From Heterotrichella gracilis (taxonomy: Eukaryota > Sar > Xanthophyceae > Tribonematales > Xanthonemataceae), in contig JAULBX010026607.1 in NCBI GenBank assembly GCA_032358255.1, positions 62,001 to 126,000 of the forward strand: DNA of 64,000 nt. Direction: 5' to 3'. Under the pieces are notes generated by a model. The model saw only the letters and a list, made by a program, of their open reading frames with translations, did no database searches and had not been told where the DNA came from. The position numbers were made by a program, and so were the translations under genes. Shown in pieces: positions 400-61,138 of this stretch (its first letter is position 1; each line of letters begins with the position of its first letter).

Positions 400-3300
400 C
401 TTTGCAAAGGGGTTGAAGTCAGCAATGGTGTCCCTTAGGCCGCCAGTGGCGTGCGCGATGGGGATGGTGCCGTAGCGCATGGCAAACAGCTGGTTCAGGC
501 CGCAGGGCTCAAACCGCGAGGGCATGAGCAGTATGTCCGACCCCGCCAGGATGCGGTGCGCCACCGGCACCGAGAAGCCCACCCAGCCCCTGAAGCAGTC
601 CTTGTGGCGCACCTCCATCTCGCGCATGGCGTCCTCGTACTCAGCCACGCCACTGCCCAGCAGGATGACCTGGCGGGATGCAGGCGGCGGCAATATTAAG
701 GCTCTTTATGCACTTTATAGTACCACAAGGACCATGAGTACCATTGTATCTATTACACTTTCTTTTTCTGAACGGCTCAATTGTTAAGGATCTGATCGCG
801 ACATAAAATCGGATACATAAAATTGTTTGTATACATTACGAGGCGTTATGTGATTTAGCGGCATTGGCACCGCCAGTGCAGGAATTGCTGAAGCAGTGCC
901 AAGACAGGGCGGGTAGGGCTAGGCATGTAGGACAGATTCATTATCAGGTTGTACTCGAACGCATGTAGGTAGCAGCACCACACCCTGGGCTAGGGTTACC
1001 CACCTGGCAGTTCCTGCAGCACAGCTCGTTGATAGACTCCAGCACCACGTCCGGACCCTTCTGGTAGTCCAGGCGCCCGATGAAGCCCATCAAAGGTTTG
1101 TTGGGGTCAACGGCAAACCCTAGCTCCTTCTGCAGGGCGGCCTTGCACATGGCCTTGCCTGGAGGGGGAAGGCTTTAGGTTTTAGGGAGCAGGCGTTAAA
1201 GGCCGGCACGGGGCCTTGCCTGTTAGGAGGGGTAGTGTGCATAGGAGGACACAGCTGCTGCACAGATACCCTGGAGGTAGGGTATGCATCCAAGGGTAGT
1301 AGCATGCTTATGTGTTTGCCGTGATCATGAGGGTCAAGGCACGTGGATTCAGCTCGCAGATTAAGCAGAAAATGATGGTATGGCCTTCGCAATTTGCTCA
1401 GACCATGTGCAGTACCACCCCTCCCCTCCGGCACCACCCACCCACCCCCACCTGTCATGTCATCCGGCCCAAAGTTGGCGGCGATGTACTCGTCAGTCAG
1501 CGGGTTCCACTCATCCATGTCCACCCCGTTGGTCACCCCGTTCAACACCCCCTGGCGCTGCTTCAGCAGCTCGTGCAGTCCCCAGCCGCCCTCGGGGGTG
1601 GTGATCTCCCAGGCGTATCCCTGGGACACCGTGCACACCCTGTCTGATGCTAGGATTCCTCCCTTGAGGATGTTGACTGCGTCCCCGTTGATCTCAGCCC
1701 ACTCGGGGAACTCCCAGCCAACCACCTCATACCTGCAAGTGGGAGAGGTCTGTGTGATCAACGTGCAGGTGCAGAGGTGCCCCTGGCAATGGGTTAATGT
1801 GCTATGGCCGCAGTGGCAAGTACTCATGAATGCATAAATATAATCTTGATCTGTGGCAGGAGCATGGCATGGGATGCCCTGAGGTGGAAGATAACAACCT
1901 GATTGCCTTTGCACAGCAGTGAGGTCCATAAAGCGCCACATCCCCTCCGCTCCCTCTGCCCCCAGTTCCCCTCTACCCACCTCAGCACCTCGCCCCCTCC
2001 ACATCCACATGCATCCCCCTCCCATGACCCCCCCACACTCACACGCACCAGTCTTCAGGGTACCCAGGTTGCTGTACGTCAGTGCCCGCCCCACTACTCA
2101 CCTCTGCAATGTCCTCCCCGCCACCTCTCCACCACGTCATGCAGCGTGATGCCCCTCCCCATCCCCTCATTCCACAGCCCCACCCCCAACAACACTCGCC
2201 CCTTGAGACCCCACCCCCCCAACAAGCCATCCGTCAACCCCCCTCCCACCCCCCACCCCCCCCCTCACACCCACCAGTCCTCGGGCAGCCCCAGGTTGCT
2301 GTAGGTCACACTTGGCTCCACCCCTTGGTGCGACAGGTTGTGGATGACAAGTACCGTGCGCGCAGCCTGGTACACCCCGTGACGCCTGTAGTTGGCTGCC
2401 AGGTAGGAGGGGACCAGCGCCGCGTGCCAGTCGTTGGCCACAAACAGGCAGCGGTCGCCATAGGGGAAGCCAGGGGGGGTGCCGGATCTGGGGGCGGGTG
2501 GCGAGGGGGGTCATGGGGGAACGCGTGGGGCTACTGGGTGGATTTTATTTTTTTTAAAGATGTGGGGTAGCGCATCACCCCCAATCCCTGCACCCACTCC
2601 CCCCACAGCAGCACCATTGCTTGAAAACAGGCCCCATACCCTAAGAAGCGACACCATGCATGTGCCCACGTAGCTGCCCACCCAAATCCACCCCGCTCAC
2701 CCTCCCCGCCGCACCTGTACCCGCCAATCGGCAGCACCAGCGGTGCCTCACATGCAGCCATACTCAGCAGCGCGTATCGGAACTGATTGTCCCCAAAGGG
2801 TCCATAGGAGTCACCGTAGGGGTTGCCTGGAAAAGGAGGGGAGGTTGTTGGGTGGGTGGGAGTGTGCTTGTCACATGGTGGAATTGAGGAGTTACCTATG
2901 CCCGACGGCCATAAACATATGCTATGCATTGGTGAGCAGCAAATGCTATACCCTTGAGGTGGTTGCAAGAGTGGCCCCGGATACCATGCAACCTCAGTGT
3001 TGCTTCCGTGGCCACCGCCATGTCTGTGGCAGCATGCATGGACCCCACCCACCCCAGCTCTGTGCCCACCCCTGCACTGTCACACCCTATACCCTAGCTT
3101 GACTCCCACCCCATCCACCACCACCCCACCCAACTGCCCCCCCTCTTTCCCCCATCCACATCCATCCAACTCACCTCTGGGAGCACAGGATTTCACCTGC
3201 ATAGCAACCTATCTCGTCCGAGACCTGCTCAACCCCCCTCCCCATACCTTTCCCCCACCACCCAGTCCACCCAATTCCCTACGCTGTGTGCCCACTCAAT

Positions 3301-5470
3301 CCCCCACCTCTTGACCCCCCCCTCACCGGGCCTGTGGTAGCAAGGGTGGTCCGCAAACACCCCCCAGACCCCCCCTCACCCTCCCACGGACCCTCCCACC
3401 CCACCCCCTCACCTGGCCTGTGGTAGCACGGATGGTCCACAAACACCCAGTCCACCCCGTCCCTGTGCAGATGGTAGAAGGCAACCTCCTGGGACCCGCA
3501 CCCCCCCAGCTGCAGGTTGACGGTCACACCGGTGTCCACAGCACTGTCATACTTGTCGTCGGTGACACCGTTCAGGTACCTGCGGGGGAGTGGGGGGGGT
3601 GGGGGGTTGATGATGCCCATCACATGGGTATCCTCGTCAGGATTGGCCAGATGTTGACGTGCACCGCGCCCATGACCCTGCACCCTCTCAAACCCTAAAC
3701 CCACCTTGAGACAATACCCATGACCCTGCCACACATCAAACTAAGCCCTACCACAGGGCACTGATCACGACCGTCCTCAACCTATACCCTATCATAGGGC
3801 TATGACCATCACCCTGTGCCCGCACGCACTCTAACCAATGACCATGGCCATGAATCGTTTCCAACCCTAAACCCTCTTAAACCCTACCTTGGGGCGATGA
3901 CCATGACCCTGTGCCCACGTGCAGCCAGCGCCGGCGGCAGCGACCCCACCACATCCCCCAGGCCCCCCGTCTTGCTCCAGGGGTGCACCTCGGCAGACAC
4001 AAACACAATGTCCATGGGGTTGTCGGCCATGGGGGCCACAGCGGACTGAATGGCCACCTCCTGCGCATGGAGTGATGGGGGTGGGTTATAGCAAGTGATG
4101 GCAACTTTGGTGCGCGTCATGGGGTTGTGCTTAGGTAGTCGCTCTTGTCAAAATGCAGGTTAGTAACAACTGCACAACCACTCACCCCTGCACAAAACCA
4201 TCACATTGCAGGCCAGCAACAAGTGCGCAAGTCTGCAGCCAACCAGGTGCGAGTGCACACTCCCGGTTTTAATCCTAAACCCTACTAGGGTTCGCAGCCG
4301 CGCGCACACCTTCTCCGCTGGCTTGAGCAGGTTCTCCTTCTGCAGCATCTGCTGCTGCACGCGCCTGAACTCATCCTGCATGGTCTCCTCGGGCTGGGAG
4401 GGGATGAAGGGAGGGGCAGCGGGGGTGATGGGGGCCGGCTGGACGGGGCGGGGGAGGTGGGTGGGGGTGTGGGTGGGGGTGGGGGCGGGAGGCGCCATGG
4501 GGAGTGCCGCCGCAGGTGGTGGCGTGGGGATTGGCTCAGGTTCGGGTTGAAATTCCAGGAAGGATGGTTTGCTGGGCTCCCGTTTCGGCAGTGGGGGGAG
4601 TGGGGGGATGGGTTGGGGGTTGAGGGGCGCAGTGGGGGTCGGGGCCGTGGGGAGCCGGGTGGTGGCTGTTGGCTTGGGGGGCGCGGCGACTGGCGGTGGT
4701 GGTGGTGGTGGTGGTGGGGCCAGTGCCGCGTTCATCTGGGTGGCGCCTGCCATGGCGTGCTGCTCGCGATCTGCAGGCAGCACCGGGGTGTGGGTACCCA
4801 GACATGGCTTATATAACAATATGCCACTGGGATGGAATAAACACCCACCCAAGGATAACAGTGCTTCATGCTGCAGTTTAGGGTACTGTTGCTGCTGGGA
4901 ACCCACTCACAAGTGCACCAGGGGGAAAGTGGCACCAAGGTGCAGGTGGGGTGTGTGTGCCACAGTGCCCTCACCACTAATAATCAGCTGCTGCTCCGTG
5001 ACAGTATCCGCCACCAAGCTGTCGGAACCAAACATCTCGTCCCAGTCCAGGCTCTGCAGCGCCACCTTGGCCTCCTCGATCGACCTCCGGATCTTGTCGT
5101 TCTCGCTCTTGAGCCTGCCAATCTCCACCTGCAGCTCCTTGGGGTCCTTGCTCACCAGTGTGTACTCCTCCGTGGTCACTGAGGTGGGCCGGGAGTCGTC
5201 ATTCCCAACCGCCCCGGGAGCCTTGCGGTCCACCGAGCTCACATGGACCGTCTGCAGGCGGGCACGGGCCTTGCCTGCGGTCAAACCCGGCACGCTGGGC
5301 CGGTCATGTCGAGCGCTGCCCTGCTTGGAGGTGCCAATTGGCGTGCGAGCAGACCTTGTCAACCCCGCTTGCAGCACGGAAGGCTGCATTGCGGCGGGGG
5401 GAAGTGGCCCCAGTGACGGGGAAATTTTGTAGCTAGGTAGAGTGCACACCCGGGTCCCGCTAGTCAACAC
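400..5470 (-). CDS. Starch synthase II-like, granule/soluble starch synthase (GT5), 3' end missing
   Basis: It transfers glucose from ADP-glucose onto alpha-1,4-glucan ends in the plastid stroma. Nine exons read on the minus strand: 5470-4975, 4770-4310, 4060-3888, 3579-3413, 2826-2715, 2487-2275, 1732-1452, 1158-1004 and 669-400. All phases agree and give 776 residues, with roughly 80 C-terminal residues still to come beyond the left edge. Residues 1-90 look like a plastid transit region; a second possible start Met lies at 5389. A short coiled coil follows at about 110-145, then a long Pro-rich linker (about 180-290). The GT5 catalytic core begins at about 325 and holds KTGGLGDV (ADP-glucose binding), then [30 protein letters not shown] and ATGGLRDT. 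The spacing and WEFPEWA block fit SSII better than SSIII/IV. Several introns contain copies of exon ends (see findings). It is divergent from the HEAT-repeat gene. Confidence 0.93.
2049..2087 (-). repeat. Intronic copy of a starch synthase exon end plus donor
   Basis: This 39-bp stretch resembles the last about 39 bases of the true exon at 2275-2313, including the ACAGCAACCTGG block and a GACTG|GTGCGT donor-like junction. It lies about 225 bp further into the same intron. The true exon is identified by continuity of the GT5 reading frame into the [10 protein letters not shown] exon. Confidence 0.7.
3324..3362 (-). repeat. Intronic copy of a starch synthase exon end plus donor
   Basis: The true exon ends at 3413 with ACCACAGGCCAG|GTGAGG. 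A near copy of its last about 36 bases, ending ACCACAGGCCCG|GTGAGG, lies 86 bp downstream in the intron with only a few mismatches. The copied segment encodes the [12 protein letters not shown] block in the real exon but is out of frame in the copy. Confidence 0.8.
3670..3829 (-). repeat. Degenerate intronic copies of a starch synthase exon end, with telomere-like motifs
   Basis: The true exon ends at 3888 (GTCATCGCCCCAAG|GTAGGG). Within the following intron, diverged copies of the GCACAGGGTCATGG block lie at about 3797-3829 and 3703-3735, and a fragment at about 3670-3685. The copy at 3703 regains an AAG|GTGGGTTTAGGG donor-like junction. TTTAGGG-type motifs separate the copies. Confidence 0.6.
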
Positions 5471-13897: not shown

Positions 13898-16800
13898 TCA
13901 CGTGGCTGTGATCTGCAGGCTCCGGTACTGCTCCGCCAGGCGCCCCTCCTTGCCCTGCTGCGCCGCGATGTGCCTCAGGGTGTTGCTGTAGTAGGACAGC
14001 AGCGTGGGGTCGCCGCGGCACACCTGGTTAGACATCTCGTTGGCAACAAGCTCAAGCAGGCTCTGCGGGAAGGGGAAAAGGAGGGTGAGCAAACCACCTG
14101 TACAGGGTCAGCCGCAGCACTGGCATGGCATGGTAGGGGCACAGTACTTGTGGGGAAGGGGGAGGTAGTAAGATCGGAGTTGGGTGAAGATGTGCTGGCG
14201 CATTCAGCTACAGTTCCTCAATCGTCCCTGCAGATCCAGCAGCGATTGCCGCATTGCCACTCCAGACAAAAGGCATATCATCTGCAGCATATGATACACG
14301 TAGTAAACACCCACCTGCAGCACAGCGGCGGTGATGTTTGCATTCCCCTGGTCAAAGTAGTACAGGTAGTGGTTCAGGATCTCAACAAACAGGGCCACAG
14401 GCGCGGTGTCGCCACCCGCCCGTGCAGCCACCAGCGCCTGTTGCTGTGCCGCGTTTGCGATCTTGAGCGCGCGCTTGAGGCACATCATCACGTTGCTGGG
14501 GTCGCGCACCGGCGGCTGGGGGGCGGCCGGTGGGTTGGTGGTGGTGGTGCTGGGTTCCTCCGTGGCGGGGGTGCTGGGCTCGGGGGCGCTCCCTGCCTCA
14601 GAATCTGGCTGGGTGGTGGGCTCGGCAGGGGTGGGTGCGGGGGCGGGCGTGGGCTCCGCCTGAAGGGAGGGAGGGGTGGGGTAAGGCGGACAGAATACGC
14701 GAATGCTCTCCTTTATTGCAGAGTGCATTAGTAATACATTGCAATAGTTACAAGGGCTGCGCATGGAACCTCTTCCTCCTCACATTGCGCAACAGACCCC
14801 CATCCCTCCATCCCCCACACGGCCCCGATCCCCCAACCCCCGGCCCCGACCCCCCACCCCCCGCCCCTCACCGCATCCCCTGCCTCTGGCAGCTCCTGCC
14901 AGAACAGGTGCGAGCACGCGCACACCGCCAGGCACTGGTCGGTCTTCTTCAGCAGCTTGGCCGAGTAGCCGGTAGCCTTGTGCACCAGCGCCCCGCGGTT
15001 GTCCTCGGAGAAGCAGCGGCAGCGGTGCAGCGTGCCCACGATGGCGTGCAGCGCAGACACCTCGGAGCGCGAGTCGGGGGTGGCCTCTTCGTACAGCGTG
15101 AAGGCCTGTGGAGGGGGGTGTGGGTGTGGGGGGTCAGGTGGAGGTGGAGGTGGCTCATTCCATGCAAATGCTTATGCAATACAGTGAAGCCCCAATGCCA
15201 GCCGTGGGAGAAATTATGGAGAATTTATGACCATGCACCACCATCACAGCCACAACACTCCACCATGCAATCGGGGGCCAGGACAATGCAGCATGCCATT
15301 CCATGCACCACCCACCTGCTTGAAGAACTCTAACCCTCAAAACCCTAAACTCTACCCTGAAACCCTAGACCCTCCACCCCACCTGCTCGAAGAACTCGTA
15401 TGCCGACAGCTCCAGGTACGCCTCCTCGCGTGAAGAAGTCTAAACCCTTAACCCTTAACCCTACACCCTCGTCCCCACCTGCTCAAAGAACTCGTACGCC
15501 GACAGCTCCAGGTGCGCCTCCTCGCTGGCCGCGTGCGCCGCCGCCAGGTACATGTGCAGCGCCACCTGGGTCATGCGCGGGTCCTCGCACAGCAGCGCGA
15601 TGGTGGCCTGCAGGAACTGGAACAGCTTCTCGTAGGTCACCTGCGGGCAAGGGGGGGAGGATCAGGCAGGGCATGTGGGATTGGGAAGTGACAGTGGGCG
15701 CTGGATGGGTGGCAATCGGAGCTCCAGCTAAATGGGGTAGGAGTATGAGTGGCGGTGGAGAGAAATGGCGACAGTGGGTACCCCACCTACCCACCAACAC
15801 AAACATGAGCCGAGTGGCATCGACCCAACAAGTCGAAATGTCCCCTCTCCCACCCCTTCCAAAGGGAACCTCCTTTCCCCTCACCTCCGCTGCTGCGCCC
15901 GCCTCCTGCTGCCTGCTGACGGTGCGTATGCACTGCAGCGCAGAAAACGCCAGCGCGGGAAGCGTGTGCTTCAAGCGCTGAGGCCCGCCCGGCGTCAGGC
16001 TGTCCCTTGCCGTCTGCAGAATGCGGTACATGGTGTCTGCGTCGTCCGAGTGCAGCCAGTGCAGCAGCCGCGCAACCATCACCTGCTCGTCCTCAATCTC
16101 CTGCGCACGGGTGGGCAGCTACGTGAAAGAATACTATAGTAAACATACATTTATAATATAAATTTCCTGCAGCAGTGGTGGCGCAGCAGTGGTGGGTGGG
16201 TGAAATGGCTTCAAAGCGCACAGCAGTGGTACAGGCTGGAAGGATGCGCCAGCATTCCACTGAAAATTCATGCTGTAATGCATGTTGGAATGCATGGACC
16301 ACATGCATTCCGCCAGTATAAAAAGGAATGCTGATTGCATGAAGCCACATGTATTGCGCCAGCATTTGACAGCCAGCGTATATATAATGATGCCATACAA
16401 GGAACGGAAAATGAACGCCGCGCGGCCTCTTCCGCCCCCCCTCACCTCCTCGTCCAGGTCCGCTATCGTCTCCCCCTCCGTGTCGCACACCAGCGGCCGC
16501 ACAAAGTCAAACAGCTTCTCCACCTTCTCTACCTCAGAAACCTGCACAAAACACAGGTGCTCAACATTTGGTCGGCATGCTGCTCCAGATGCAATCAACC
16601 AAGCCCCTGTCTACTCTCCCACACCCCATGCAACTTTTTTGTATTGGCATCAGGACAGGATGCTATGCTGGCACCAGGCGCTGCCTGCTGTGGGGCCAAC
16701 AAGCTCAGCTACAACAGCCAAAACACAATGCACAACACCAGCTGCACTTTGTGAACAAGTGCAGATGATGAGCATGCTGCACTGGCTAAGAGTGATTATC

Positions 16801-19800
16801 TGTTAACGCACGCACATGTGCGTGTGCAATGCCTCCCCCACCTTGGCCCCCGTCTTGATGATGGTCTTGACGATGCGGATGGCCATGTCCTTGCGCGTGG
16901 GTGGGCGCAGCAGGTCCACGATTCGCGGGTAGTAGGCCATGTCTAGCACCTCCATGAGCGGGTAGCGGTCCAGCGGCACCGCCAGCAGCGTAATCAGCTG
17001 CTTCTCGGCCTTGGGGTCAACGATGGGGGCGCGGGACTGGAGCGCCTGCGGAAAAGTGGGGGAAGGGGGGCTGTTTCTACAGCTGTACACACTCTTTATC
17101 TGTTTTTATTTTTATTTTTATTTTTTGGTGTGGCTGGGGATGATGCTGGGCCCCTGCTCTTGCCCTAAAATTGGGGAGTGGGGAAAGCAACCCTAGCTTT
17201 GATTGTCACTATTTCCATGACAATAAACACTTGGAGAGGTACAACATGGTCCACGCGAAAGGCCGTTTGGTAAGATGCACACACGTGCCTTGGTGGTATT
17301 GTCCCGTGCCCCACCTCCTAGCAGCTACCATTACCTCGCCACCGCCGCCCGCCACCCCCACCACCACAGCCCCCACCACCACAACCGCCACTCCCGCCAC
17401 CCCCCCACCACCCACCTCATAGCAGCTCTGCAGCGTGTGATCCACAAAGTCCAGCCGCGTGGGGTGCACCGCGCCCACAAAGTTGAGCAGCCCGATGTAC
17501 ATGGCTGCGGCGTCGCCTGCGGGCATGTCCGCGTGCTGTGCTGTGATCTTGCCAGTGGCGCTAGTGAACTGCGTGAAGCTATCCACGCTGTGGAACTGCT
17601 GGATGGAGGCGGGGTTGTCCTGCGCGAACCTGGGCGGGCACGGTGTGGGGGCGGGTGAGAAAGGCGAACTAGCCCTCCAGTATCCCCACAGTCACGCAGG
17701 TGGGCCGCGGCACGCATGATCCCCATGGTCACAGTTGCGCATGAGGCTCCCAGCTTGAGCCTCCCAGTATCCACATTTATGCACACAAAAATGTTGTGTG
17801 ATCCTGATAAGCCCTAGCCATGCACGATGTAATCCACAAATCCTTCCGTAGTCATGCAGGCCAAAACCCAGCACACGCCCAACAGGCCCATGGCCCAGGC
17901 AGCTCCATGCGGTTGCAAAGAGGTGCATGTAGGACCGCATGCATGGCCTTGTAACTTTATTCCACCAAATCGCTGCTGGTTCCTCATCGCCATTCCATGT
18001 GCAACCCCACCAACACATCCCCACCCCTTTCGCCCACCCACCATCCTCCGCCGGCCTCCCCACCCCACCCACCTTGCCAGTCGCTCCATGAGGCTCGCCA
18101 TGACCGCGTGCAGCTTCACCCCTGTCTGCAGCTCTGGGCATGCGTTGAGCAGCGTCTCCAGGGTGCCCAGATGGAACTCGTCCGGGAAACCCTGCAGCCA
18201 CACACCATGTAGCATGAAACACAGATTGTGACATTCACAGCAATATACCATGGTACGGTGTTCCCACGGGCTGATAGGTGCCACATGCACCACGATAGTG
18301 TCAATGAATGCAGGCCCACATGGGCCGGGCTTTAACACATCTGGGTGTTCCAGAATCGCCACACCCGCCACCCACCCTGCATGCCCCACCCACCCACCTG
18401 GATGACGCACTGCATGAGGTACTGCTGCGCGATGTCGTCCTTGCAGCTCACGATCTGCTCCAGCACGCGCGGCAGCACCGTGTGCTTGTACAGCTGGAAG
18501 TCAAGCCCGTCCAGCATGCTGAGGTAGGTCAGGTTCTTGCCAACCAGGTCTGCCAGCTGCTGCCGCTCCTTCTCGCGCCGCTCCTTGTCGCGGGGACCAC
18601 CCTGCGCGCACAGGTGGGGATGCGGTCTTCGTCGCCATATTTGGAACCCTATGTACCCTAGTAATGCAAGCAGATTCCCCTGCCATGATCCCACCCCCAT
18701 GTGCACCTGTGCATCCCCCACCCGGACCTGTCCACCGATACTATTGTCTCCCCTCGCGTTCCACCCTTCCTCGTCGCCAAGCACGCCCAGCTCCTTATGC
18801 ACAAGCAAAGCAGGTGTGCACGTATGCGTGCGAGCAGCCCACCAGCTGGCCATGCTCTTTCCGCCACCCACCTGGTGCTGAAGAATAAACCCTAAACCCA
18901 AAGCCCTAAACCCACCTGGTGCTGAAGCATAAACCCTAAACCCAAAGCCCTAAACCCACCTGGTGCTGAAGCATAAACCCTAAACCTAAACCCCTAAACC
19001 CACCTGGTGCTGAAGAATACACCCTAAACACAAAGCCCTAAACCCACCTGGTGCTGCATGCGGACCCAGAGCTTGTTCATCTCTGTGAAGTTCTGCAGCA
19101 GGAACTCCACCGCGTCCACCACGGTGCCCCCCTCGCCCTCGTACTCCGACCCGCTGTCCGGCAGCAGCCCCTTGGACACCTGGCACAGGTAGCTGCGCAG
19201 GAAGAGGCCGCGCGTGGGGTGCTGCACGCCCTTGCACATCTCCACCAGGTCCTTGAGGATGTCCTTGGCGTGCGCCTCCTTGGAGCGGATGAAGCAGGCG
19301 CCCACGGTGCACAGCAGGTACCTGCAGAGGGTTAATGGGGCTTCCTTGGACGTGGATCTAGTGGGCAAAGGTATGGAGGACAAGGTTGCAGCCACCTTGG
19401 ATTTTAAGCTGTGCATAAGGGCTGGTGGGTGTCTGTACATGTGCAGCGACTTACAGCCTTGGTAGCACATTCCCTGCGTGTTGCACCAGCTCATAGAGGT
19501 CGGAGTACGACCTCCCCTTCTTGTGCTCCTCTGCAAAGTACACCTGCAGCCACACGGTTGTGAGTGAGCCACAAGGCTGTGTGTGTTGGCTATGCACCCA
19601 GCGGTGAAGCTACCGCACCATACCTCCAAGTACCGCAGCTCGTCAAAAGCTTGCATGTACAGCTCGTAGTACTTTTGAGGGGACAGCAGCGAGGTCCGCA
19701 GCTCCCCTAGCATGGCTGCGGAGTAGCGCAACGCCTCGCGCAGGTTGTCCTCGTCCTATACACATGCATGCACATGGGTTAGGGGATGGCCAGGTTGGAG

Positions 19801-24087: not shown

Positions 24088-27000
24088 ATGCAGCCAGTTC
24101 CAGCCAGCAGGGGCCTCCACCCTCTTGCTGCGCCCAGGGCACCACATCCGCACCTACAAGCACAGCCCCACCCACATATGCAGCCCACTCTCCGCCCCAT
24201 GACCGGTATCAGCCCGCAGCACATCCACCTGAACCCTTGCCAGGCTATTCAACCCGATCAGTGCAGCACCGGTGCCAGCACGCAGCATGGCGTGCCGGCA
24301 GCGGGTGCGCCTTCGGCGGTGAGCAGGCGCTGGCTATGCGGTGCAGCAGCGGGCAGCGCAGCCCTCCTGCTACAAGCGGCACAGGTAAGCACACGTGATC
24401 CACCTGCATGGTTTAATTGCGGCAGGCAGTTCACCCTCTCCCGCCTTGTGTGCAACTGTGTTACAGCAGCAGTGCATGCACCATGCGGTCCCGTGAACAG
24501 CACATCTCAGATGCCACCTGGGACAATCCATGTAGCTAGAAAATGCACTCTTTAAACTCCTATCCTGCATCAAGACCCTGCAACCTTCATCTCCAACCCC
24601 TGAAACCCTAAAACATAAACCCCGAGCCCCCCCCATCCCCCCCTGCACACAGCCCCAACAGGCCCTGGCAGGGCCCTTTGACAACATCGCCTCTGCGCTG
24701 TTTGAGCTCATCCCCCCGGTGGTACCTGGCCCGGTGCGCTTCCCGCGCAAGGTGCTTGACCTGCGCTTTGCAGTCATGCTGCTCAGGTCAACCTACGAGG
24801 CGGTGGATGACCTGGACTTCATACCTATGGTGGGGTACTTTGCATTACTTTCTTGTGCAATTGTATGGGTTTGCGTGGAGTACCTGCTTTATCACGAGGT
24901 GTAGGTGGACGACATGGACTTCATACCCATGGTTATGTGTCTAGATGATTCGTCTATTGCTGTGCCATTTCAGCAGTACAGCCAGATTAGCAGTTTGCCC
25001 TGCACGGGCTGGTGCAGGGGTTGTTGTGGCTTTCAGGGAACAAAGTGGTGTCTGGTGGTGAGTGCACTCCCATGGGTTTTGGAGACTTCATGCAGGTCGC
25101 CGTCATAGGACTGGTTCTTAATTGTGTGCATTCTTTAGTCAGACTACTACTCACTTACATGCAGGAGGATACAGAACCCCACAGGGCCAGAAGTACTGCT
25201 GTTATGCCCTGCTTTTATTGCTTGGATGTGCTGCGGTGTAGCAAGATGTTTGACAATGCCAGATGTGTGTCCAGGATGAGTTCCAGAAGCAGTTTTGGAA
25301 GCTGCGTCAGGGGCAGTACGAAGCCTACACCTTCCAGTACGCACCAATCAAAATCCGCCAGGTGGGGCAACTGACCCATGGAACCGACTGGTGCACTGTC
25401 CACAGGGCACTGCATACATCGTCATGTCCCATTGCACACAGTCTCAAGCACAACGTCAAATGATTTCATGAAGTGTAATGCATTTCCCATGATCAAATGT
25501 TCATTGCCATGGTGTGTGATCCGTTCCCATGATCAGGCATAACCCGCCTTGATGGAAGCCCCTGATTCACACCCCGATTCCGCAATGCACAGAGGCCATA
25601 CACACCCGTCTATGCAATTTCACCTCCTTTGCCCACATAATGCCTACATGAAACAGTGTCAGCTCCCAGCCGGTGTGCACATAGACAGCATCAGCAGCCC
25701 CATGCCACATGTTTGACCCATGTCCGTTGCCCCACTTGCAGGGTGACCTCAGTGACCCGCTGTACTTTGACTTCATCAGCTTTGCACAGTACGCCACTGT
25801 ATCGCAGGAGATCCCACGGGGACGGCAGGTGTTTGAGGTGGGGACTTGAAACCGCAGCAGGCGCTCTCTAGGGAGCTCACATGGGAGGGAACCATCATAC
25901 AAAATTAAAAACCAAACACGCGCATGCAAGCTACAGATTTTTTTACTATGATGTGCCTTGAAATGAAAATTGCAAAATGACGACTGTGCGAAGGAGACTG
26001 TTGCACCTGTGGGTGAGCACTACCCTCTCAATCCGCCCTGCAGGAGTTTTGCGAGGAGTGCCCCAACGAGCGCCTGATGGTGACGCGGGACCCTAGGCTG
26101 CAGGACAATGCAGGCCTGCCCAAGGCTGTGCAGGACAGGGCAGCAGACAGGATCTATGAGGGACTGCGCTTTGGGTTCAGGGTGAGGCGGGGTCAGGGTC
26201 CAGGGCTCCGGGGTTAGGGTTTAGGGTAGAGTGCCACGAGAGCCTGCGGGACTAGGGACGCGGCACCAAGCCATGGGCAGCTGGACGGCCGTGGCATAAC
26301 TGTCTGAGTTCATGTGTATTGGATATCCAATGCTCACCACTGGGGCCCCAACGTTTAGGTAAATGTGTGCATTGTTCAGTCACGACGGCCGTTGGTGAGT
26401 GGTCAATCCCCAGTTCGCTTGCCCATGAGGGCTGCTGCGTGGCATCATACACGCTGTGCTCTGAAAACGAGGACTTGGATGAGGCCCTGCCAGGCAATTT
26501 AAGTTGTAATTTGTTGCAGGAGGAGGACTTTAATGGTCCCGCACCCGCACCGCATGGGGCAGGCTGGGCAGAGGTGATGAAGGGCGTAACAAAAATCCTG
26601 GACATTTTTGTGGACAAGGGGTACGCCATCAAGGTGCGGCTTGAGGTTACATTGATGGCGTATGATCTTCTGGACATTTCCGTGATTGTGTTTTTCGTAA
26701 TTCTTTTTGTTTTGTTTGGATGTTTTCCCTCCCATTAGGCGCAGCAGCACATCAGGCGCCATGAGCTCGGTGGATGTATTCACCACGCCATTGATTGACT
26801 GTCTTCAACAATGTTTCATTTAGTTGTGCATCTTTCAACCACATGCGTACAGCTCCAATCCAAGCCATTGCATGTCTCCCCTGCAGGCCCAAGTGGTGGA
26901 TTTCAGGTCCCAATCTGCGGACAGCGCGTCCTTCACGGTCAAGACTGAGGGGCCGGCAAACCTATGGGGTGGGTTGTGCATGCAGATAGCAGTGGCCTAG

Positions 27001-28464: not shown

Positions 28465-30490
28465 CTACCTGCAGCTGAGTGACTGCATGCGCAGCTCCTC
28501 CTCTGTCATTGGCCGCAGGAAGCAGGAGCCATCGCCATCACCAGCCTGCAGGGGGGGATATCAGTGCAAGGCCCTTACGTTGGGCATTCTAGTGACAATT
28601 GAGGCACTTTTGAGGTGCGTGCCTATTGAGTTATGTTCAATAAACAAATGCCATTGCGATTTTTAACGGCGTTGGTTGATGGGAAAGGCACCAAGGCACC
28701 AATGATTATCCAGGGTTGAGGCATTGATTTAGGAATCCTTATTGCAATTGCTTCATGGCAATGCATTGCACTGGCACTGGCCCCATCACCCACGCACCGG
28801 CCTCCATGGCTCCTTGCTGGCCGGCCGCATGCCCTGTGCTCCCACATATCCGGCAGGAGGGGGTGGGCACCAGTTGTCCGGCGGCACGCGCACAGGTGTC
28901 GCCTCCCACACATCGAACACCTTCTTGGCAGCGGGGCCTGGCACAGACGCAGTGCTGGGCGTTGGCAATGAGGTGCGCGTGCAGAATGGCTGCTTGTTGA
29001 CATTGTCTAAATCTGATTGAGCTTGCAACGGTAAACTTGAGGTGCGTGTACCCTATCATTTAATTTAATTTATCATCTATGGCCATACTTTGCTGAGGGG
29101 CTGTTTGCTGAGGGGCCATATATGGCCATACTGAGGGCCATCTATGGCCATACTTTGCTGAGGGGCCATACTTTGCTGAGGGGCCCACTGCCGCAAGACT
29201 GGTGCAGCATTGCTTGTGCAGCGTCGCACCTATATGGGGCCCGTCATACGTGTATGTTGGCTTCTTGGGTACATCCTTGTACCTGTCTATCAGCTCCAGT
29301 AGGAGCGTTCGCACCTGCCCAGGCTCCCACTGATAGCCCTACAAGGACACAGGCACCTCAGCGCCAGCCAGGCAACACAGCAACTGACTTGCAGAATGCC
29401 CTCTGGTGGGTGCATTTTAGAAATACCCTGTACAGGTACAGGTAATTGAGAGAACTGCACTGACCTTCTTCACCACCAGATCCATCACCGACAGCGGTGG
29501 CCCCTTCTCGCCCTGCAAACAGTAGCGCTGCCTGTCAACAAACCCTACAGGGTATTGTGTAAACCCTCGCGCGTACTGAAAGAACCCTTGGGTTGAAGGA
29601 AAGCTTGGCAAGCTTACCGTGTCCAGGTCCTCAAACCCATGGAAGGTCAAGACGCCTGGGTCTGCGCCTTTCTGCAGCAGGTACTCAAACACCTTGAGGA
29701 AGGGCGCGTGCTTGTAGTGCGCCATCCGCGCACACCTGTGCAGCGGCGTCCAGCCATTGGCCCTGTCCTGCTGGTTGATCTCGGCCCCTCTGTGCTCTAT
29801 CAAGAACTTTACAACGTCCAGCTGCACACGGGAACCAGTTATCAGTTACATAGAGAACCCTAGTGTAAGGGTACACAGAGGTAGACCTTATAGGGGGGTC
29901 AGCTGAGCTGGCACTTGGCACCCGTGGTGCAGCACCAAAAGCCCTACCTGCCCATGATCAACAGCAAAGTGCAAGGCTGCTCCCGCGCCCCTGTCTAGTG
30001 TGACAAACCACCACTCGCCGCTTTGGCTCTCTATCTGCTTGAACCGTGCCAGGTCCCCAAACCGCAGTGCATCAATATACTGTAGAGGCAACGCCCATCT
30101 TGTTGTATTGCAATCATCGCGATGAGGGTGATTAGCCGCGGAAAAAGGATATAAAGGCTATATGAGACGACTAACAAGGATTCGACAAAGATATTTCGTG
30201 CAGATGCACTTGTACAACGGCGCTGGGTGCGTGCCATTGAACGGTGGCATGGGTTGGCATGTGAAAGGTCACCTGAAAAAAGCTGTGCTTGAAGGTTGGC
30301 GCTACCCCAAACTCAATCCCAGGCCACGTGTATCCCCCAATAGCCTGCAAGCACTCAATGCTGTGTCATCGCTGCAGTATGGGTTGCCAACGAGGTGCTT
30401 GCTTCCACCCACCTTGATGTGTTCCCCGTCGGTCGTCACTGTGTCTGGGATGCGTGGCATGGCCAGGAACGATGTGTCGTTGGCCGACAT
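28465..30490 (-). CDS. Ankyrin-repeat protein
   Basis: Seven exons on the minus strand (30490-30413, 30079-29948, 29821-29618, 29512-29465, 29338-29230, 29006-28798, 28545-28465) join in phase to 286 residues. After a short polar start, ankyrin repeats run from about residue 27 to 140. The clearest parts are AALHFAVDHGQLDVVKFLIE and NGWTPLHRCARMAHYKHAPF, followed by LLQKGADPGVLTFHGFEDLD. The C-terminal part has no repeat and is Pro-rich, ending with the block DGDGSCFLRPMTEEELRMQS. I do not recognise the subfamily. No transit peptide is obvious. An in-frame ATG 39 bp upstream (30529) is an alternative start. Exon five to six crosses an intron with a minisatellite; the acceptor was chosen by phase. 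Confidence 0.8.
29075..29184 (-). repeat. Intronic minisatellite in the ankyrin gene
   Basis: Irregular tandem units built from CATACTTTGCTGAGGGGC and a shorter TATGGCCAT element, about five copies in 110 bp. It lies wholly in the intron before the sixth exon. Confidence 0.8.
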
Positions 30491-58600: not shown

Positions 58601-61138
58601 AGGCAAGGGCAAGGCGGGATGCAGGCGAGCGGAGACGTACCGAGAAGGACATCCAGGTGGGGGGCGGGAATCGGGTTCTGAAGGCATTTCAGAATGGCTG
58701 TAAATTGCTGGCTGGTTGTGGATGTGGGACATAGGGAGCGATGCATTGGCCTTTGGTGTGCTGGATGGCAATGGCGTCAGCCCTACACATTACACATTGC
58801 AGTTTAATCACACCTATCAGCAAACCTGTTGGCTGGCAATTTCTGGGGAGGCGAGAAGGTGGGGGGGGGGGGAATCTTGTTGGCAATTGCGGTGCAGCTG
58901 CGTGAACGCGTGCAACGACTGTCATGTGGCGGTGGGAGACGTTCCCGTTCCAGTGGTCTCCCCCCAGTTGCGCCAACCCTAAATTGCTCTCTCCCTTTTT
59001 CTCCTCTAGGAGGAGATGGGTGGTGCCGGCGCCTACTCTGCGGACCTCCGTAAGCACTACGACCTCAAGAACGACGACTGGAAATACGACATCATGCCAG
59101 AAATCTGGGAGGGGCACAATATCGCCGACTTCATCGACCCCGACATCGATGCCAAGCTTGAGGCGCTTGAGCGTGAGGAGGAGCTGCTGGAGCAACAGGC
59201 GGCAATGGAGGTGAGGGGCAGGCGCTAGGGTTTTTGTGTAGGGTTTACAGGTGGATGAAGTGGAGGCACAGGACTGATGGCACATGGCTTGTAAAGGCAT
59301 TGCAAGGTTGACTAGGGTATGTATGTGGGGTTATGGCATTGCACGGCTGGTTGGGGGCTGAAGGGGATTGCGCACTGAAATGAGCAGGGGGAGGTATGTG
59401 GGCTGATGGCTCTGGTGGAGTCACATGCCTGCTGTAACAGGCGCAGCTGCACCACCTAAAACCGTGGCTCCGCACCACTGGGCACATCTTGGGAGGACAC
59501 GGGTTGGACCAGACGCTGGCAAATGGGGGAGCATTGCAAAGCATGTCCTCATACACGCCATGGACGCCTCCCACATGGGGCTTGCATATAAGCTGCTAAG
59601 CACACCGTTGTCCCCCCAGTGGATGCCCCCTTATTTTGTCCCGCCTTGTGTCTCTCTCATTTTATCCTGCTCTTAACCCTCCCACCTTGTCCCCCTTGTC
59701 CCAGGGCGAGGACATGGATGCCGAGCACCTCACCCCCGAGGAGCAGGCCACGCTTGCCGAGATCCGGTCGCGCAAGTCCAAGATCATTGTGCGGCACCGG
59801 CAGCGCAAACAGGCGGCAAACAACGCGCCCATCCTGCCGCACAAGGCCGACAAGGAGCGCACGCTCAACACCAGGCAGATGAAGGTAGGGTTTAGGGTTT
59901 AGGGTTTAGGATTTAGGTACTGCACCCATACATGCAGGGGTACGGTGACACCTTCCAATGTCCTCACGCGCAATACCGTGCAGATGGAGGTATATGGGGT
60001 AGCAAGGGGCTGGCTGAGACCATGTGCTTGGGCACATATGGCATGGGGAAACTGTGCCTGCCAGGTGTCACCGCCCACTTGCATTTGTACGCATGCATGG
60101 ATAATACATACATACATGCAAGGGAAGGTGACATCTGCCAGCCATGATCTTCTCATGCATAATACATATGCATGCACCCCACCCCACGCTCTCCACACCT
60201 ATCCACCCCTGCCCGCTCGGCCCCACATGCCCCTCCCCTTCCTGACACCCCCTTCGCATCTCCCCTCATCGCAGGACTCCCTGTCGCGCATGGGCATCGA
60301 CCCCAGCGCCGCAATCGAGCGCGCCCGATTCCGCTCCCAGTCGCGCGTGGGCCGCAAGCGCACGCGGTCAGTGGCGGACGAGGAGATGGCGGACGCCGAG
60401 CCCCAGAAGCGCATCCACTCCTCCAAGTCGCGCTCCATGTCCCGCGGGAGGGCGCTTAGCACGGCGGGCGACCCCGGCCAGGGGCTCAAGGACTCGATGC
60501 AAAAGGTGTGGTCGTGGGTGGGAAGGAGGGAAGGGGGTTGTTTTGTGGGCGAATTGATGGGGGTGTATGGGGGTGTGTCGCAGGGTTGTGCGCTTGCTGG
60601 TGGTACAACTTGGTTTCTGTTTGTTGTCGAATTTTTCATTATTATTTTAATATATTTGGCGACATATTTCATTAGTACTGTAAAATTAACGCTCAAATCT
60701 TACCATTGGTTGTCACGTCAAATTAGGGTTTCATTCGGCAGCAAAGGGTTAGAACCCCAGGGGGTGAAGCCCCCTACGAAGACGAAAACTCACAGTTGGA
60801 TTTGCCGCATACCTTGAGTCGAATTTATGCGCAGGTGTGCATGTACCCATTATATCAGGTGGTGTCCTGTGCCCTCTTCCCCGTCCCGTGTGGCCCCCTG
60901 TGCCTTTGGGCAGGCCTTTGGGCACCTGTGTCACCCTCCCCATCCCACCCCCTTGTTGCTCACTGGCTGCGTGTTCCCTGTGCCCCTGCAGAACCGGGCC
61001 ATCAAGATGGCGGACAAGGCGCAGTTCCTGCCCGGCAAGAACGCGCGGCGGGGAGAGGCCGATAGGCACGTGCCGGACTTCAAGCCGAAGCACTTGTTCT
61101 CGGGGAAGAGGGGCAAGGGGAAGACGGACTGGCGATAG
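55676..61138 (+). CDS. NOG1: Nucleolar GTP-binding protein 1 (NOG1/GTPBP4)
   Basis: An OBG-family GTPase needed for maturation of the 60S ribosomal subunit in the nucleolus. Ten exons (55676-56009, 56561-56628, 56872-57186, 57512-57755, 57982-58109, 58504-58656, 59010-59210, 59705-59884, 60275-60505, 60992-61138) join in phase to 666 residues, the usual length. The N-terminal helical domain starts [20 protein letters not shown]. The G domain shows G1 GYPNVGKSS (about 175-183), G3 [19 protein letters not shown] and G4 NKVD. The C-terminal half has [20 protein letters not shown] and a basic tail ([13 protein letters not shown], then [20 protein letters not shown]), all diagnostic for NOG1. The intron after 59884 begins with four telomere-like units. 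Confidence 0.97.
59885..59916 (+). repeat. Interstitial telomere-like repeat directly at a NOG1 donor
   Basis: The intron starts GTAGGGTTTAGGGTTTAGGG and continues with two degenerate units. These are about four TTTAGGG-type copies beginning at the 5' splice site itself. Confidence 0.9.

Follow-up and report, generated by a model that had tools for sequence, protein, structure and literature searches.

In the xanthophycean alga Heterotrichella gracilis, pieces of exon edge recur as diverged copies within the adjoining introns, and we consider it probable (roughly 0.75) that short tandem duplications spanning either splice site, with the outer site kept, lengthen introns without changing the protein. 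The copies were recognised in a 64,000-nucleotide stretch of contig JAULBX010026607.1 (assembly GCA_032358255.1, positions 62,001 to 126,000 of the forward strand; hereafter the window), where three introns of a starch synthase gene contain them, and were then followed in a sample drawn from 17 contigs.

Copies of exon ends in three starch synthase introns

A preliminary description of the window had placed exon ends of the starch synthase gene at 2275, 3413 and 3888 and had claimed that the intron following each holds a copy of it. The three exon ends are correct, since the splice sites and the joined reading frame agree, and all three junctions are crossed without an insert by seven homologues. 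When the last 50 exon nucleotides were searched against their own intron, none of 2000 dinucleotide shuffles per intron matched the observed score, for each of the three introns; of the other predicted exon tails, some 436 in number, 3, 1 and 0, respectively, scored as high, some predicted exons in this gene being copies themselves. The gene, the sources and the copies are as follows.

400..5389, and on past the window start for some 645 bases, minus strand: starch synthase gene; the joined exons form one open frame from ATG to stop, and homologues align along the catalytic part
2275..2320, minus strand: source, end of the exon stopping at 2275 (splice and frame check, copy search)
2049..2094, minus strand: intronic copy of the exon end at 2275, 35/48 (score unmatched in 2000 shuffles)
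3410..3448, minus strand: source, end of the exon stopping at 3413 plus 3 intron nucleotides (copy search)
3324..3362, minus strand: intronic copy of the 3413 exon end, 35/39 ungapped, offset 86 (copy search)
3878..3923, minus strand: source, end of the exon stopping at 3888 plus 10 intron nucleotides (alignment)
3783..3828, minus strand: first intronic copy of the 3888 exon end, 37/46, offset 95 (alignment)
3697..3728, minus strand: second intronic copy of the 3888 exon end, 78% over 32 nt (alignment)

The identity of about 90% over 39 bp reported for the copy at 3324 is thus borne out, the best gapped alignment being 40/49 at 3327-3375, and the exon end at 3888 has two copies. With an exon-only query, the best copy of the 3888 exon end is 29/36 at 3793-3828; in a separate test, the first 40 intron nucleotides after 3888 resembled the sequence that follows the copy. 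Among the named algal rows, the best matches of the starch synthase are to Myrmecia bisecta, Coccomyxa and Elliptochloris, the last a trebouxiophyte, as Myrmecia bisecta and Coccomyxa also are; the top row is labelled Lupinus.

Frequency, locality and orientation of the copies

The assembly is a draft of 68.5 Mb in 903 contigs, and stretches were sampled from contigs other than that of the window as well, giving a final set of 290,828 bases, 17 contigs, 49 genes and 500 introns. Gene models were predicted with a purpose-written gene finder trained on the sampled stretches, introns and splice sites being predictions throughout; labels such as C120, C160, C200, C240, C320 and L011 to L015 are sample names, with coordinates counted within the sample stretches. 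Introns and exons shorter than the stated minimum of each test were dropped, and contig C1 (L002, L020), L018 (1.3 kb) and L001, which lies within the window, were removed from the intron counts. Contig C1 (894 kb) is probably a bacterial contaminant or associate; the 20 kb sampled from it have a GC content of 36%, contain long frames free of introns and encode a type 9 secretion plug domain, and we take the group to be Bacteroidota. Copies are at times mistaken for exons by the gene finder (for example in VPS35 and in a GH20 hexosaminidase gene), which lowers the counts and places some false junctions among them.

Each junction was represented by a query of at most 40 exon and 10 intron nucleotides, which was searched against the same intron; length-matched introns from other genes provided the mispaired control, and the 403 of the 500 introns that are at least 150 nt long were used. 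At a score of 95, donor copies are present in 33 introns (0.2 expected), acceptor copies in 23 (0.1) and either in 52 (0.3). Lowering the score to 80 gives 42 (1.3), 33 (1.3) and 67 (2.6), and raising it to 125 leaves 21 donor and 14 acceptor copies (0.0 expected for each) and 33 introns with either. The suggestion that the process reaches beyond a single locus is therefore upheld: over 17 contigs, 52 of 403 introns have copies, where mispairing would yield 0.3. The process is not donor-specific, because acceptor copies are nearly as common as donor copies (23 and 33). This acceptor-side control speaks against a donor-region process, and of the earlier proposal that introns grow by duplication of the donor region, the gain of length by duplication near splice sites stands, but the donor specificity does not.

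Locality and orientation were examined at a score of 90 in an earlier set of 421 introns, which was also used for the codon-position and indel counts given below. For exon tails, a match was found in the following intron 22 times out of 359 and in the preceding one once out of 262; for exon heads the pattern is mirrored, with 20 of 359 in the preceding intron and 2 of 259 in the following one. As to orientation (n=345), 21 donor and 20 acceptor copies are direct, and one of each is inverted. The preference for the own intron and for the direct strand points to local direct duplications: by the next- versus previous-intron and inverted controls, exon-edge copies are direct and lie next to their source. 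Copy-bearing introns cluster by gene, with only 3 of 2000 permutations as extreme. The GH20 hexosaminidase gene (L011 433-8922) is a strong outlier, having exon-edge copies in 7 of its 12 introns of at least 150 nt, and no copy-bearing intron occurs among the 68 introns of C200, C160 and L012. Copy load shows no relation to third-position GC in the 36 genes with at least four introns.

Within the window, VPS35 (Pfam PF03635) and a gene at 24 kb had been described as affected in two introns and one, respectively, and both are (15377-15525 and an array at 18866-19056; 24894-24933). A further case, at 59884, was added by the scan; the intron that follows it opens with telomere-like repeats (59886-59917).

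15473..15525, minus strand: VPS35 source, exon end plus 6 intron nucleotides (alignment)
15440..15469, minus strand: telomere-like tract separating the VPS35 source and copy
15377..15429, minus strand: VPS35 intronic copy, 50/53, part of it miscalled as exon by the gene finder
18866..19056, minus strand: VPS35 array, 4.3 units of 44 nt with exon end, donor and telomere-like repeats; the exon ends at 19048
24795..24831, plus strand: source in the 24 kb gene, exon end 24829 plus 2 intron nucleotides (alignment)
24894..24933, plus strand: intronic copy in the 24 kb gene, 33/40 (alignment)
59851..59887, plus strand: source, exon end 59884 plus 3 intron nucleotides (alignment)
59956..59992, plus strand: intronic copy of the 59884 exon end, 28/37 (alignment)

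The exon end at 29154 also reached the score, but is not counted because it lies within an 18-22 nt tandem repeat and its exon boundary shifted between gene models. Counted automatically at a score of 90, the window has 7 copy-bearing introns among the 110 that reach 100 nt; this figure takes in 29154 and a row at 15383 that starts from the copy miscalled as exon, and misses 3413 owing to a similar miscall. At a score of 95, copies are less frequent in the contig of the window, with 5 of 98 introns, than in the whole sample, with 52 of 403. No Rfam match at the gathering threshold was found in the window (1-64000).

Origin of the copies

We propose that short tandem duplications would be frequent in the genes of this alga, with a unit mostly of about 60-140 nt, sometimes larger or repeated. 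A unit that straddles a splice site would leave the exon edge, the splice site and the intron start twice in tandem. Splicing at the outermost site (the first donor or the last acceptor) would keep the mRNA unchanged, so that the duplication would be tolerated; the inner exon piece would become part of the intron and then decay, and the intron would be longer by one unit. Staggered breaks or paired nicks, repaired by fill-in and end joining, may be at the origin of the duplications, and telomere-like intron ends may be favoured places for them.

The anatomy of the copies agrees in part with this proposal. Source and copy are 63-289 nt apart, 27 of 47 events falling at 63-136 nt, and in 21 of the 47 the spacer that separates the two is similar to what comes after the copy (p<0.05), which indicates joint duplication of exon edge, splice site and intron start. 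Whole units are clearly duplicated at C240 12064, C240 959, L011 4268, L014 7834 and L011 3837, and multi-unit arrays occur at C120 13380-13728 and in VPS35 at 18866-19056. In L011, three copies of one exon head (3033, 3181, 3321) stop at the same base, and their spacers are AT-rich and barely related. Differences between exon and copy at codon positions 1, 2 and 3 number 257, 234 and 330 in 58 alignments, some of which lie in repetitive sequence, and frame-breaking indels outnumber frame-keeping ones in the copies by 111 to 16; this spread and the frameshifts are as expected if the copy evolves freely and the exon next to it is constrained. In alignments that include the splice site, the copies retain GT in 18 of 22 cases and AG in 15 of 16, which leaves intact-looking splice sites that are presumably not used. 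In 18 of 38 aligned events the offset is a multiple of three, a slight excess that might mean occasional use of the inner site.

Several observations weigh against duplication of whole units by an evenly placed process. The remaining 26 of the 47 events are without significant spacer homology beyond the copy, among them all four rows from the contig of the window (3888, 24829, 29154 and 2052). At L013 6822, L015 2378, L011 3323 and C240 15534, the exon part is at least 90% identical and yet no duplication of exon plus flank is visible, and L014 6535 and C320 16096 resemble an exon piece, telomere repeats and an exon piece in succession. Moreover, only 1 of 364 intergenic windows has a duplication (3.8 expected; 9 of 1410 overlapping windows), contrary to what neutral duplication at an even rate would lead one to expect; this shortfall is suggestive only, given that the intergenic DNA sampled amounts to about 33 kb and that copies are clustered by gene. 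Finally, the junction excess is larger than the detection bias that we simulated. With duplications placed evenly and the exon half alone conserved, the simulated junction-to-interior ratios are 1.4-2.5, whereas those observed are 2.4, 3.7 and 5.5 at scores of 80, 100 and 125, the counts being small (16 versus 3 at 125).

This last point bears on the alternative, which we regard as unlikely, that splice junctions are duplicated preferentially by a process directed at them, such as transcription- or splicing-linked breakage. In a profile of 40-nt windows (349 introns of at least 200 nt, score 80), copies peak at donor -30 to +10 (32 of 338, 0.6 expected) and at acceptor +0 to +50 (23 of 325 for +0 to +40) and drop into the exon (7 of 278 at -80 to -40 of the donor). 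Elsewhere in the introns the figures are 14 of 349 at donor +60 to +100 and 8 of 349 at acceptor -40 to 0; the interior stays under half of the peak, and intergenic windows are nearly empty, all as targeting of junctions would have it. Much of the peak, however, is expected from the conserved exon half of each pair, selection should purge most exon-internal duplications, and duplications occur within introns at all depths, a nearby copy being present in 3-5% of intronic windows up to 400 nt from the donor and in 1.8% further in. Windows inside exons contain copies too (62 of 651, in-frame duplications and repetitive proteins counted together), and the ends of coding sequences have copies at 2 of 35 stop sides and 0 of 25 start sides at a score of 80, small counts both. 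Most of the junction peak may thus be detection bias and selection, and a real junction excess beyond these is possible. The check at other intron positions cuts both ways for the preliminary description: interior duplications (about 4% of 40-nt windows) tell against a donor-only process, whereas junction copies (9% at donors, more than twice the interior rate) are still the commoner class. As a separate observation, a tandem repeat of about 125 nt with ten or more units lies within a predicted coding exon at C320 3204-4649.

Telomere-like repeats are associated with the copies. A telomere-like 10-mer is present in 19 of 52 copy-bearing introns and in 46 of 351 others, with a length-adjusted odds ratio of 3.6 and permutation p values of 0.014 within genes and 0.0002 within length classes. 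Among 69 longer telomere-like tracts, some of which come from one array (C120) and are not all independent, 64 are intronic, 5 lie between genes and none is exonic. Genome-wide, the 21-mer (TTTAGGG)3 occurs in 834 places and its reversed control in none. We think it quite improbable that the copies arise where filler DNA, telomere-like or other, is inserted into a staggered break of about 60 nt, so that the target is duplicated on each side but no whole unit is. Such insertion would account for the direct repeats that flank 27 of the 69 tracts at a score of 80 (2.6 by mispairing; 14%, or 276 of 1920, at random intron positions), for the 6 of 22 tracts listed in which both copies are 54-73 nt long and lie 0-3 nt from the tract, and for C320 16062 and L014 6539, where by eye no tract follows the second copy. 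At L014 7847, C240 12030, VPS35 and C120, however, a related tract is seen by eye beyond the second copy as well, as unit duplication predicts, and 33 of the 52 copy-bearing introns have no telomere 10-mer. A strictly telomeric-insertion model was rejected, since unit duplication is seen too. A stronger form of the duplication proposal is that duplication has true hot spots at those splice junctions that have telomere-like repeats: telomere-type end processing of breaks there would copy the exon edge and splice site, and introns would grow by about 100 nt at a time, accumulating intact decoy splice sites; this we hold to be a doubtful extension.

It is very improbable that the copies are alternative exons under selection. 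The mostly intact splice dinucleotides and the offsets divisible by three (18 of 38) would suit that idea, as would the few copies that differ mainly at third positions (L011 3323 with 0, 0 and 6 differences at positions 1, 2 and 3; C320 16096 with 1, 0 and 9), but third positions hold only 40% of the differences overall (330 of 821), frameshifts are many (111 versus 16), and the copies examined are exon pieces, the copy at L011 3033 ending within the exon. A coding-exon reading was rejected on account of the frameshifts, no overall coding constraint on the copies being seen over the 58 alignments. Assembly error, unmerged alleles or read errors could be suspected in a draft of 903 contigs, and yet are an extremely remote explanation, given that exon-part identity spans 69 to 97%, that divergence differs between the exon part and the intron flank, and that multi-copy arrays are present. 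A mobile element in the spacer, such as an introner that would place similar intron sequence at many loci, was also considered, and the one 198-nt spacer searched, from L013, revealed no large family: it matched itself, two places elsewhere in part (44 and 57 nt, 84-89%) and a piece beside its own source. The part of this spacer at L013 6918-6974, which has the 44-57 nt matches at 84-89% in contigs C663 and C804, is perhaps a short dispersed repeat.

Significance and comparison with known systems

Intron lengthening is usually put down to transposons. If short tandem duplication is responsible here, about one in eight introns of at least 150 nt records growth of another kind, and the extent and relative age of each duplication can be read against the exon, which is almost frozen. 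The alga would also offer many natural cases in which two similar splice sites are present and the outer alone is presumably used, making the choice of splice site directly testable. In practical terms, gene finders can miscall the copies as exons.

A literature search limited mostly to open papers revealed no genome-wide account of intronic copies of exon edges, and the frequency of the copies, their occurrence at both splice sides and their association with telomere-like repeats appear to be new. The Rogers model of intron gain, in the account given in PMC4974935, invokes tandem duplication of exon sequence bearing AGGT, and shares with the present case a tandem duplication of exon sequence beside splice signals. 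It predicts, however, the tail of exon 1 at the intron end and the head of exon 2 at the intron start, and both are near chance here: each geometry is found in 1 of 377 introns at a score of 80 (0.1 expected) and in 3 and 4 at a score of 60 (about 2 expected for each), against 23 of 377 with a copy at intron +40 to +140 (score 80). The process is therefore distinct from AGGT intron gain, as the preliminary description had held, and AGGT intron gain was rejected as a general cause.

As to how the duplications might form, PMC8355091 (Nat Commun 2021) describes fill-in by CST and Pol alpha-primase at 3-prime overhangs, followed by end joining, as a source of small tandem duplications in mouse and human cells. 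Those duplications are likewise small and adjacent and are completed by end joining, and the complex is also telomeric, which would make the telomere role of CST an attractive link to the telomere-like repeats; they were obtained in mouse and human cells with induced breaks, however. The closest precedent that we found is the potato RdRp gene, for which Ma, Lan and Niu (2016; PMC4974935) describe a local tandem duplication across an intron-exon boundary. In both cases a tandem duplication crosses the boundary and the exon piece of the upstream copy lands in an intron. In potato, the outcome is an extra intron at one locus; in H. gracilis, existing introns have apparently been lengthened, at both splice sites and in 52 of 403 cases.

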